Shown here: in pieces, positions 1,725 through 54,644 of the stretch
How positions within the stretch are numbered: position 1 is the stretch's first letter
Layout: each line of letters begins with the position of its first letter
Assembly (NCBI GenBank): GCA_026391945.1
Contig: JAPLDA010000016.1
Span: 1 to 64,000, forward strand
Direction of reading: 5' to 3'
Length of the DNA stretch: 64,000 nucleotides
DNA from: Bacteroidota bacterium
Lineage (GTDB): Bacteria > Bacteroidota > Bacteroidia > AKYH767-A > 2013-40CM-41-45
Notes under the pieces: model-generated
Databases searched by the model: none
Seen by the model: only the letters and a program-made list of their open reading frames with translations
What the model was told of the DNA's origin: nothing
Program-made: the position numbers and the translations under genes

Positions 1725-1732
1725 TACGTTTG
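1725..1732 (+). promoter_or_regulatory. Bacteroidota -7 box (TACGTTTG) for the desaturase
   Basis: TACGTTTG fits the TANNTTTG consensus of the phylum. It ends 20 nt before the ATG at 1753. The T-rich sequence near 1702-1709 is only a weak -33 match. Its position favours the ATG at 1753 over the upstream in-frame TTG at 1744. Confidence 0.55.
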
Positions 1733-1752: not shown

Positions 1753-2766
1753 ATGTCAACACGTACCGATTTCAACTACTCGAACGAATCAGAACCACAC
1801 CGCATCCGCACAAAAAAAATCCTGGCCGATCATCCTGAGGTTCGGGATCTGATCGTTAAAAATCCTTCTACTTTCATTGCGATCGTGGGCATGGTGTCAT
1901 CCATGATGCTGCTCTCATACCTTCTGAAAGATTCTCCATGGTGGCTGGTGGTGGCGGTGGCCTACCTGGTTGGTGCGTTTATCAATCATTCTCTTTTTGT
2001 GATGATACATGAATGTTCTCACAACCTTTTGTTTAAAAAGAAATCTGCCAACCTGGTCACAGCCATCTTCGCCAATCTCCCTCACATCCTTCCAAGCGCT
2101 GTTTCATTTACGCGTTACCACATCAAGCACCATTCATTCCAGGGAATTCACGAATTGGATGCCGATCTCCCTGATCGTTGGGAAGCCAACTTAATCGGTC
2201 ATTCCTTTTTCGGAAAAGCTTTGTGGTTATTGCTTTTCCCCTTGTTCCAGATGAGAAGAATATTCCGGTTGAAAGAAATCAAACCTCTCGACGGATGGAT
2301 TGTATTCAACCTCGTGGTGCAGGCTGCTTTTGATGTAGCGCTGTGGTATTTCCTCGGGCCGAAAGCATTTTGCTTCATGCTGTTCAGTTTCTTTTTTGCA
2401 GTCGGGTTGCATCCGCTCGGAGCACGATGGATCCAGGAACATTATCTTACTCTAGATGACAAACAGGAAACGTACAGCTATTACGGTGGATTGAATGCCA
2501 TTTCATTCAATGTCGGTTATCACAACGAACACCATGATTTTCCTTCGGTGCCATGGAACAAACTCCCGGAACTGAAAAGACGGGCTTCTTCCTATTATGA
2601 TTCACTATACTCGCACACTTCCTGGACGAAACTTTTTTTTCGTTTTTTATTCGATAAGAATATTTCACTCTATTCACGCGTGGTTCGCAACGACCGGGGA
2701 AAAGTTACGCTGACCGACGAATCGAAGCCTGATGTGGAAATGATTAAAGAAGATGTGTTGAGTTGA
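1753..2766 (+). CDS. Dihydroceramide delta-4 desaturase homologue (DEGS-like)
   Basis: This 337-residue membrane di-iron desaturase has the three histidine boxes HECSHN (86-91), HIKHH (123-127) and HNEHHDFP (257-264). Beyond the boxes it matches the eukaryotic sphingolipid delta-4 desaturase (DEGS1/DES1) end to end. The N-terminus has the DES-type segment around PHRIRTKKILADHPE, the middle has GLHPLGARWIQEHY, and the C-terminal region has ETYSYYGGLNAISFNVGYHN and SLYSRVVRN. The length is close to DEGS1 (about 323). In eukaryotes the enzyme puts the 4,5-trans double bond into dihydroceramide using O2 and an electron donor. Bacteroidota make dihydroceramides, so the substrate is plausible. The family match is recognised from memory; the exact substrate is inferred. 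The ATG at 1753 is chosen over the TTG at 1744 because of the upstream -7 box. Confidence 0.85.
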   Translation: MSTRTDFNYSNESEPHRIRTKKILADHPEVRDLIVKNPSTFIAIVGMVSSMMLLSYLLKDSPWWLVVAVAYLVGAFINHSLFVMIHECSHNLLFKKKSANLVTAIFANLPHILPSAVSFTRYHIKHHSFQGIHELDADLPDRWEANLIGHSFFGKALWLLLFPLFQMRRIFRLKEIKPLDGWIVFNLVVQAAFDVALWYFLGPKAFCFMLFSFFFAVGLHPLGARWIQEHYLTLDDKQETYSYYGGLNAISFNVGYHNEHHDFPSVPWNKLPELKRRASSYYDSLYSHTSWTKLFFRFLFDKNISLYSRVVRNDRGKVTLTDESKPDVEMIKEDVLS

Positions 2767-7555: not shown

Positions 7556-9604
7556 ATGATGACCGATCCAAAACATTTTCCTTTTTATTGCAACAGCCTC
7601 ACACATTATTCGCGGTTCCTTACGCGAGTTGTAAAGGTGGGCACACTTGGCATTGGAGGTAACAATCCCATCCGTATTCAAAGTATGACCACCACCGATA
7701 CGATGAACACGATGGCAACCGTGGAACAAAGCATCCGGATGATTGAGGCCGGTTGCGAACTGGTGAGGATTACGGCTCCCAGCATCAACGAAGCAAAAAA
7801 TCTTCTTCAGATAAAAAACGAACTGCGCAAACGTGGATATCAAACACCGCTTTGTGCTGATATCCATTTTACACCGAATGCTGCGGAGGCTGCAGCACGC
7901 ATTGTAGAAAAAGTAAGAGTGAACCCGGGGAATTACGCCGACCGGAAAAAATTTGAACACATCGAATACACCGATGCAGCATACGATTCTGAACTTTTGA
8001 GAATCCGAGAACGGTTTATTCCGCTTTTAAAAATCTGCAGGGAATATGGAACGGCCATGAGGATCGGAACCAACCACGGCTCGCTGAGCGACCGCATCCT
8101 GAGCCGTTACGGCGACACTCCGCTTGGAATGGTGGAGTCGGCAATGGAGTTTATCCGCATTTGCAATGATGAAAATTACCACGACATCATTCTTTCTATG
8201 AAGGCCAGTAACCCACAGGTGATGGTGCAGGCGTACCGGTTGCTGATTAAAAAAATGTCGGATGTGGGAATGAATTATCCGTTGCATCTTGGCGTAACAG
8301 AAGCAGGCGAAGGCGAGGATGGCCGGATTAAATCAGCTGTTGGCATCGGGGCATTGCTGGAAGACGGAATCGGCGATACGATCCGTGTTTCCCTTACCGA
8401 AGATCCGGAACTGGAAATTCCCGTGGCGAAAAATTTAGTTGACCGTTATAGCAGAAGAAGAGAATTACAGAAAGCAATTCCGGAAGTTGGCAGCAAACAA
8501 ATATCCGATGATGTGTCCCACATCTCACACCCCACCTCTCACATCTTTTATTCACCATTCGAATACCGGCGCAGAGAAACTCATGAAGTCCTGAATATCG
8601 GCGGCCACCATGTTCCGCGTGTGGTTACTGATTTTTCACAACGCGATGAAATCACAGCGGCGTCTTTGTTTGCAGCGGGTTATCAGTATTCTGTCCCTCT
8701 CGACAAATGGAACATTTCCGACCAGGCATGTGATTATATTTTTACGGGAAATCATGTTCCGGATTTTAAAATTCCAGGAACGCTGTCGCTCGTGATGAAT
8801 TATGAAACCTGGAAAAACAATCCGGAAAAAGAAAGATGCTACCCGTTGTTCAGCGTGGATGGATTTTTGAGCGCAGAAAATAAATCGCCCCAGCTAAACC
8901 TTGTCTCTCTTAGCATTTCTTCAATCTTCAATCTTCCATCTTCAATTTTCAATTCCCAAAATGTCGTTTTAGTTTTCGAAACAGAAAATGAACACGGAAT
9001 GGCTGAACAGCGCAGGATGTTCATCGAACTCATGGAGAAAAAATACAATGTTCCTGTCATCATCAAAAGAAATTACAAAAATATATCCGCTGAACAGTTC
9101 CAGCTTTTTTCATCCACCGATTTCGGCGCCTTGTTGCTGGATGGTATGGGTGACGGAACCTGGGCGGATGCGAATGGTGTTGTTTCAGAAAAATTCATCA
9201 ACGCCACGTTGTTCGGAATCCTGCAGGCGACACGAACGAGGATTTCAAAAACGGAATACATCAGTTGTCCGAGTTGCGGACGAACGCTTTTTGATTTGCA
9301 GGAAACCACGGCGAAGATCCGTTCGAGAACCGATCACCTGAAAGGAATTAAAATAGGGATCATGGGTTGCATTGTAAACGGCCCCGGCGAAATGGCCGAT
9401 GCCGATTACGGGTATGTTGGAACCGGTGCCGGGAAAATTACTTTGTACAAAGGCAAAGAAGTCGTACAGAGAAACATTGATTCCGAAAAAGCTGTGGATG
9501 CATTGATTGACCTGATCAGGCTGCATGGGGATTGGGTGGAAGTGAAATCATCAGGTGCAAACCAGTTTGAATTTACGAGTGATAACAACAGTGATTCTAA
9601 GTGA
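7556..9604 (+). CDS. ispG: 4-hydroxy-3-methylbut-2-enyl diphosphate synthase, large type
   Basis: IspG (GcpE) makes HMBPP from MEcPP in the MEP isoprenoid pathway and needs a [4Fe-4S] cluster. The 682 residues follow the large three-part type of Bacteroidota, Chlamydiae and plants: a TIM barrel (about 20-300, with RIGTNHGSLSDR and LHLGVTEAGEGEDG), an inserted domain (about 335-560), and the cluster domain with C571-x2-C574 (CPSCGRT), C605 (GIMGCIVNGPGE) and E612. Two stretches look foreign: 316-332 (DDVSHISHPTSHIFY) and 449-468 (LVSLSISSIFNLPSSIFNSQ). Each is encoded by repetitive DNA (see repeat entries) and keeps the frame. All catalytic parts remain, so the enzyme is probably active. Confidence 0.95.
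   Translation: MMTDPKHFPFYCNSLTHYSRFLTRVVKVGTLGIGGNNPIRIQSMTTTDTMNTMATVEQSIRMIEAGCELVRITAPSINEAKNLLQIKNELRKRGYQTPLCADIHFTPNAAEAAARIVEKVRVNPGNYADRKKFEHIEYTDAAYDSELLRIRERFIPLLKICREYGTAMRIGTNHGSLSDRILSRYGDTPLGMVESAMEFIRICNDENYHDIILSMKASNPQVMVQAYRLLIKKMSDVGMNYPLHLGVTEAGEGEDGRIKSAVGIGALLEDGIGDTIRVSLTEDPELEIPVAKNLVDRYSRRRELQKAIPEVGSKQISDDVSHISHPTSHIFYSPFEYRRRETHEVLNIGGHHVPRVVTDFSQRDEITAASLFAAGYQYSVPLDKWNISDQACDYIFTGNHVPDFKIPGTLSLVMNYETWKNNPEKERCYPLFSVDGFLSAENKSPQLNLVSLSISSIFNLPSSIFNSQNVVLVFETENEHGMAEQRRMFIELMEKKYNVPVIIKRNYKNISAEQFQLFSSTDFGALLLDGMGDGTWADANGVVSEKFINATLFGILQATRTRISKTEYISCPSCGRTLFDLQETTAKIRSRTDHLKGIKIGIMGCIVNGPGEMADADYGYVGTGAGKITLYKGKEVVQRNIDSEKAVDALIDLIRLHGDWVEVKSSGANQFEFTSDNNSDSK
8505..8551 (+). 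repeat. In-frame repetitive segment 1 inside ispG
   Basis: The DNA is built from CACATCTCACACC-like units (CCCACATCTCACACCCCACC, then TCTCACATC) and encodes a linker between the barrel and the inserted domain. It resembles the C/A/T-rich low-complexity repeats found between genes here (for example 24038-24056). Confidence 0.5.
8917..8957 (+). repeat. In-frame repetitive segment 2 inside ispG
   Basis: Tandem TTCAATCTTC/CATCTTCAATTTTCAATTCC units encode ISSIFNLPSSIFNSQ. The antisense reading is the KIEDGRLKIE-type repeat that I know as a common interspersed repeat product in Bacteroidota. It keeps the ispG frame. Confidence 0.6.
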
Positions 9605-53423: not shown

Positions 53424-53454
53424 GCTGATTGGCTAATTAGCTGATTAGCTAATT
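53424..53454. repeat. AATTAGCTAATT-type repeat overlapping the kbl 3' end
   Basis: The pattern GCTGATTGGCTAATTAGCTG followed by ATTAGCTAATT is a run of related palindromic units. It forms the whole rnhA-kbl gap and extends into kbl: the last two codons and the stop codon of kbl (53445-53453) lie inside it. Confidence 0.7.
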
Positions 53455-54644
53455 GCAGTTTTAAGTACCCCAAGTTCCTTCCCGACTTTCGTAAATGCTT
53501 CAATGGCTTTATCAAGATGATGGCGATCATGAGCCGCGGAAACCTGGACACGGATGCGCGCATTTCCTTTCGCCACCACGGGAAAGAAAAATCCAACGGC
53601 ATAAATACCTTCCTCGAGCAGCCGGGAAGCAAAGTCCTGCGCCAGTTTCGCATCGTACAGCATGATGGGAACAATCGGGTGTTCACCCGGTTTGATATCA
53701 AATCCTGCTTTGGTAATTTGTTCCCTGAAGTATTTTGTGTTCTCCCATAACTTGTCGCGCAGGTGAGTGGTTTCACTCAGCATGTCGATCACCGCAATGG
53801 AAGCTCCCACAATGGAAGGAGCAAGCGAATTTGAAAACAGGTAAGGGCGTGATCGTTGGCGAAGCATTTCGATGATTTCTTTTCTGCCCGAAGTAAAGCC
53901 ACCCATCGCTCCTCCCATCGCTTTGCCAAGAGTCCCGGTGATGATGTCGATGCGTCCCATCACATTCCTGTACTCATGCGTTCCGCGGCCGGTAGCACCC
54001 ATGAAACCGGTGGCATGGCATTCATCAATCATCACCAATGCGGAATAACGATCAGCCAGGTCACAGATTTTATCAAGTTGTGCGATGGTTCCGTCCATGG
54101 AGAATACGCCGTCGGTGACAATGATCCGGTGGCGAAGGTGCTGCGTTTCGGCGAGGCACTTTTCCAGTTCTTCCATCGTGTTGTGTTTGTACTTGTAGCG
54201 CTGTGCTTTGCAAAGCCTCACACCGTCGATGATGGAAGCATGGTTCAACTCATCGCTGATGATGGCGTCCTGTTCATTCAGCAACGGTTCGAATACTCCG
54301 CCGTTGGCATCAAATGCCGCGGCATACAGAATCGTTTCTTCGGTTCCGAGGAAAGCCGTGATTTTTTTCTCTAACGTTTTGTGAATGTCCTGTGTTCCGC
54401 AGATGAAACGTACCGATGACATTCCGTAACCATGTGAATCAATCGTTTTTTTCGCCGCTTCAATGACTGCGGGATGGGAAGAAAGTCCGAGGTAATTGTT
54501 CGCACAAAAATTAATGACCGGTTTTCCGTTGGCGATGATGTCGGCTCCCTGCGGGGAAGAAATGATCCGTTCCTGTTTGTAGAGTCCGGCTGATTTAATT
54601 TCCTCCAGTTCCTTTGCGAGAACAGGTTGTAAGGTCTTATACAT
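53445..54644 (-). CDS. kbl: Glycine C-acetyltransferase
   Basis: This PLP enzyme (2-amino-3-ketobutyrate CoA ligase) makes or splits 2-amino-3-ketobutyrate from glycine and acetyl-CoA in threonine breakdown. The 399 residues show [48 protein letters not shown] (H135), [20 protein letters not shown] and the PLP lysine K241 in [15 protein letters not shown]. Close relatives (serine palmitoyltransferase) share the fold, and since Bacteroidota make sphingolipids this needs care; the match to kbl sequence is stronger. The C-terminus ends inside a dispersed repeat. tdh is not adjacent. Confidence 0.9.

Follow-up and report, generated by a model that had tools for sequence, protein, structure and literature searches.

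A predicted sphingolipid delta-4 desaturase of a Bacteroidota bacterium from a little-described bacterial branch of the DES family

The DNA analysed in this work (referred to below as the window) is a stretch of 64,000 nucleotides from a Bacteroidota bacterium. It carries an intact open reading frame (ORF) for a homologue of the sphingolipid delta-4 desaturase DES/DEGS (Table 1), which begins with an ATG at 1753 and whose stop codon ends at 2766; the mechanical ORF call opens at a TTG located 9 bases before this ATG. The gene is flanked upstream by a gene for a Kir-type potassium channel and downstream, on the opposite strand, by a gene for a class-V aminotransferase, and no sphingolipid gene is found beside it in the window. 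An upstream sequence matches TAnnTTTG, the Bacteroidota -7 promoter consensus; no full -33/-7 promoter pair was found upstream of the gene, and a search for an RNA hairpin immediately 3' of the ORF found none. At positions 1500-1620, in the interval that separates the potassium channel gene from the DES gene, lie two palindromic stretches that are terminator-like by eye. The window also encodes a VIT-family protein (PF01988; 4000-4710, plus strand) and a large, 682 aa IspG/GcpE protein with two matched stretches (7556-9604, plus strand). The GC content of the DES ORF is 0.447 vs. 0.442 for the window, and the composition therefore gives no indication of foreign or contaminating DNA; the completeness of the host genome is rated at 100% and its contamination at 0.6%.

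Table 1. Positions of the DES gene, its domain and motifs, and other features of the window.
Feature	Position	Strand	Evidence or remark
DES/DEGS (sphingolipid delta-4 desaturase) homologue, complete	1753..2766	+	ORF, 337 aa; Pfam domains; orthologues
Lipid_DES N-terminal domain (PF08557), residues 3-38	1759..1866	+	48 bits (cut-off 23)
Histidine box 1, HECSH, residues 86-90	2008..2022	+	Both His conserved in all of 28 sequences
Histidine box 2, HIKHH, residues 123-127	2119..2133	+	Alignment
YSYYG motif, residues 241-245	2473..2487	+	Common to eukaryotic DES, nearly absent in other desaturases
FNVGYHNEHHDFP, residues 252-264, containing histidine box 3, HNEHH (257-261)	2506..2544	+	
ISLYSR, residues 304-309 of the window protein			Present
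TACGTTTG, match to Bacteroidota -7 element TAnnTTTG, located 20 bases upstream of the ATG	1725..1732	+	Suggestive only
2-amino-3-ketobutyrate CoA ligase (KBL), SPT fold family	53445..54644	-	TIGR01822, 691 bits

The encoded protein matches two Pfam families, viz. Lipid_DES (E 8e-13) and FA_desaturase (PF00487; 101.6 bits, cut-off 29.7, E 8e-29), and its orthologues in other genomes are 59-71% identical to it with equal start and length; on account of these E-values and orthologues, the domain matches are not due to chance. All of the histidines of the three boxes are invariant in an alignment of 28 homologues. The boxes, YSYYG, FNVGYHNEHHDFP, and ISLYSR, which the preliminary description had read in this 337-residue protein, are all found, and its view of these motifs as specific for DES1 fails for the ISLYSR string, in which Arg309 is the only residue common to all of the DES clades compared. 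The window protein is not fused to a cytochrome b5 or a ferredoxin domain. Its AlphaFold2 model (pLDDT 88) matched AlkB (probability 1.0) and SCD1 (probability 0.85-0.95) in Foldseek with modest TM-scores, and the modelled structure places it in the membrane di-iron fold class. AlkB and SCD1 share this fold class but are only 14-17% identical to the window protein and act on other substrates; a sequence search of the PDB with the window protein found no relatives.

Comparisons with other desaturases place the window protein, on the basis of its sequence, within the DES family and not among the general acyl desaturases. It is about 40% (40-43%) identical over nearly its full length to the DES proteins of human, fly, and Arabidopsis (approximate eukaryotic reference sequences), vs. 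21-27% identical to the other desaturases of related genomes. The Lipid_DES scores (70-78 bits) of three of the four eukaryotic reference sequences, viz. all but human DEGS2, show that these three are reliable enough to be placed within the family; the identities to eukaryotic proteins are approximate. Five bacterial proteins of the eukaryotic type that were read from the data (L121, L122, L123, L168, and L169) served as a control for eukaryotic-type DES that is independent of these reference sequences. Our analyses have identified 24 residues that are conserved in 90% or more of the bacterial clade and in each of the four eukaryotic and five eukaryote-like DES sequences, and each of which occurs in no more than one of the nine other desaturases compared. 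It is very improbable that the window protein is an ordinary acyl-lipid desaturase that merely resembles DES: it belongs to the same superfamily as these enzymes, and the host genome encodes two further PF00487 desaturases, but both of the latter group with the outgroup in the tree, far outside of DES, and the window protein has the Lipid_DES domain and conserves the DES-only residues. The DES-type identity given in the preliminary description is thus borne out by both domains, the tree, and these residues, and the tree shows no grouping with general acyl-lipid desaturases, the placement that it had named as refuting its proposal.

The window protein resembles DES1/DEGS1 in its length, its Lipid_DES domain, its three equally spaced histidine boxes, YSYYG, and NVGYHNEHHDFP, and differs from it in the approximately 40% identity, the separate clade, and the bacterial rather than eukaryotic host. 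DES1 also has an N-myristoylation site, whereas the N-terminus of the window protein is MSTRTDF and lacks the corresponding glycine after the first methionine.

A scan of genome contigs identified 437 relatives of the window protein, and the best 80 of the 437 are all from Bacteroidota (viz. Cytophagales, Cyclobacteriaceae, Chryseolinea, Chitinophaga, Puia, Ferruginibacter, and Mucilaginibacter are among the groups represented). The sampling of the distribution was within the phylum Bacteroidota: in an even sample across this phylum a Lipid_DES match is present in 25 of 248 genomes, and near the host the occurrence is patchy, with 14 full-length matches in 60 relatives. Two queries found no DES relatives on viral contigs, none was found on plasmids, and in a viral fold library only general giant-virus desaturases were matched. 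In an unrooted tree of 63 sequences without an outgroup, a branch with support of 100/100 and a length of about 1.2 changes per site separates the Bacteroidota-type DES, including the window protein, from the eukaryotic DES together with the five eukaryote-type bacterial DES. The window protein lies deep in a wholly bacterial clade outside of the eukaryotic clade (approximate eukaryotic reference sequences), and human DEGS1 and DEGS2 group together, apart from the clade of the window protein. When distant outgroups were added, the eukaryotic and eukaryote-like group was again recovered with 100/100 support, and the root was unreliable; rooting by distant desaturases failed because the outgroup branches are very long.

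Although DES enzymes are known chiefly from eukaryotes, recent acquisition of the window gene from a eukaryote is extremely improbable and is excluded as an explanation, because its protein lies deep in a bacterial clade that is separated from the eukaryotic DES at 100/100; the presence of DES in many Bacteroidota families and the host-like GC content also argue against it. An ancient transfer, in either direction, is possible. The protein tree suggested in the preliminary description does group the window protein with DES, within a bacterial clade rather than a eukaryotic one, and the suggestion of a eukaryote-like gene turning up exceptionally in one bacterium gives way to that of a clade which is widespread and deep in Bacteroidota. 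By these sequence comparisons the window gene is assigned to a large, overlooked or little-described bacterial branch of the DES family, and it appears to be one of many such genes spread through the phylum. To our knowledge, no enzyme of this bacterial DES clade has been assayed; a literature search, mostly outside of subscription journals, found no paper in which a bacterial DES had been assayed.

The five eukaryote-type bacterial proteins come from five genomes of another Bacteroidota class and are 43-51% identical to eukaryotic DES. They resemble the window protein in being bacterial members of the same family (about 44% identity) but differ from it in grouping with the eukaryotic DES at 100/100. 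They represent a second type of bacterial DES and occur in two genera of one family, and a DES of any type was found, at the search sensitivity used, in 11 of 245 genomes of their class. For these proteins, a transfer from a eukaryote to a bacterium is plausible from their placement.

The first enzymes of both the ceramide and the sulfonolipid pathways, which lie upstream of the reaction considered here, are encoded in the host genome. Its one serine palmitoyltransferase (SPT), on contig C2, scores 685 bits with NF047600 (equivalog cut-off 640), and its best PDB matches are the serine palmitoyltransferases 8guh and 3a2b. Directly downstream of it are genes for a GNAT acyltransferase and an NAD-dependent epimerase (L159, 1-3067), and among Bacteroidia SPT loci the GNAT neighbour is also found in five other genomes and the epimerase in four. 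By their positions and domains, and by analogy with Caulobacter and Bacteroides, whose CerS and CerR are named in PMC10865984, the GNAT protein is probably a ceramide synthase and the epimerase a ceramide reductase. With an SPT over the cut-off that is clustered with these two genes, the host is predicted to be capable of making dihydroceramide, and the spt-like genes, whose absence the preliminary description had counted as evidence against its proposal, are present in a conserved three-gene cluster. The cysteate fatty acyltransferase (CFAT) of the host, an enzyme of the sulfonolipid pathway encoded on contig C28, matches SulA 7u7h with an E-value of 4e-180 and CFAT 28eh with 2e-167. The position of SulA Lys281 is an alanine in SPT (PMC9304779), and at this position the C28 protein has a lysine and the C2 protein an alanine. 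A further candidate for SPT within the window, on its minus strand, was rejected and is listed in Table 1 as KBL, its NF047600 score being only 357 bits. In other genomes, one protein (L162) scores 500 bits with NF047600, fits SPT better than the other NCBIfam models, and carries the SPT alanine, and two SPT-like proteins (L164 and L165, from G013 and G018) score 490-505 bits, below the equivalog cut-off, with the SPT alanine.

The co-occurrence of DES with these enzymes was examined in the 62 genomes of the class of the host within the phylum sample, SPT being defined by an NF047600 score of at least 640 bits. SPT over this cut-off is present in 5 of the 7 genomes with DES vs. 4 of the 55 without it (Fisher p 4e-4, ancestry ignored), and when the genome of the window is left out it is present in 4 of 6 vs. 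4 of 55 (p 0.002, ancestry ignored). CFAT is found in 59 of the 62 genomes, whether DES-positive or not, and because it is nearly universal in the class it predicts nothing; DES in this sample tracks SPT rather than CFAT. Matches to NF047600 of 465-526 bits were rejected as SPT since they are very common outside of the class, and a DES/SPT count of 28 of 36 vs. 2 of 44 that rested on them was dropped. For eight of the DES-positive genomes no SPT was confirmed, and a pure dihydroceramide role therefore misfits them. For one DES-positive genome (G009, locus L028) the searches found neither SPT nor CFAT, perhaps because of an assembly gap.

These observations bear on the possibility, real but rather unlikely, that sulfonolipid (N-acylcapnine) and not dihydroceramide is the main substrate, and that the clade makes 4-ene sulfonolipids like flavocristamide. 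CFAT without SPT is found in seven DES-positive genomes from four families (G002, G004, G007, G008, G031, G204, and G208; five of the seven are assemblies of 6-20 contigs), and sulfonolipid is therefore a real candidate substrate in them. Among the genomes tested from the family of the window, SPT is found in the genome of the window only, and the host CFAT carries the diagnostic lysine. Flavocristamide A, from a marine Flavobacterium, is itself an unsaturated sulfonolipid. The near universality of CFAT regardless of DES and the association of DES with SPT argue against this reading, as do eleven DES-positive genomes outside of the class (families f38 and f56) in which no match to CFAT exceeds the level reached by SPT-type proteins, so that sulfonolipid is not the substrate everywhere, if the search is complete.

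We consider it likely that the window protein is a delta-4 desaturase acting on N-acyl sphingoid-type lipids and would form 4,5-unsaturated ceramide and possibly also 4,5-unsaturated sulfonolipid. From the evidence above we infer its reaction, double-bond position, and substrate, with fair confidence for delta-4 desaturation and with dihydroceramide and sulfonolipid as the candidate substrates. The substrate would be an N-acylated, 3-hydroxylated, 2-amino long-chain lipid; the three histidine boxes would bind a di-iron centre at which O2 is activated, and two hydrogens would be removed across C4-C5 of the long-chain base to give the 4-ene. In the host, this lipid would be dihydroceramide from the SPT cluster, and possibly also N-acylcapnine formed from cysteate. 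The simplest single account is that the predicted enzyme recognises the N-acyl-3-hydroxy core common to ceramide and sulfonolipid; that an ancient Bacteroidota delta-4 clade acts on both, reading this core irrespective of the C1 head group, is a tentative proposal. Of the true 4,5-unsaturated ceramide product put forward in the preliminary description, the DES-type activity and the SPT stand, and the restriction to ceramide does not, CFAT being present as well and some relatives having CFAT only.

At an identity of approximately 40%, the regiospecificity could have shifted, or the enzyme could hydroxylate as does DEGS2, a bifunctional delta-4 desaturase and C4-hydroxylase which belongs to the same family and has the same fold. 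Desaturation and hydroxylation are small changes apart, and DEGS2 also shares motifs with the window protein. A C4-hydroxylase, or a DEGS2-like mixed hydroxylase/desaturase, giving phytosphingosine-type bases is nevertheless unlikely, as the third histidine box of the window protein is HNEHH, as in DEGS1, whereas that of DEGS2 is HVEHH. A separate fatty acid hydroxylase (PF04116) is also encoded directly downstream of DES in 9-11 of 80 relatives (e.g., L074:9048-9878), which may suggest a division of labour. This hydroxylase is possibly a partner that modifies the same lipid; no conserved sphingolipid operon around DES and no constant sphingolipid neighbour were found in the 80 relatives.

In animals, ceramide is bioactive and dihydroceramide, which lacks the 4,5 double bond, is much less so. 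Should this double bond be made by many environmental Bacteroidota, their lipids could mimic host signals, sphingosine from the environment could no longer be read as a clean marker of eukaryotes, and a bacterial branch relevant to the origin of the eukaryotic DES would be added to the family. The window enzyme is also a candidate for the formation of unsaturated sulfonolipids, among which are signals to choanoflagellates, and if both lipids are its substrates, bacterial 4,5-unsaturated ceramides and 4-ene sulfonolipids would have an identified enzyme. A precedent for a lipid desaturase common to bacteria and animals is CarF/TMEM189, a plasmanylethanolamine desaturase cited in PMC10191378, which is of another family and acts on another lipid.
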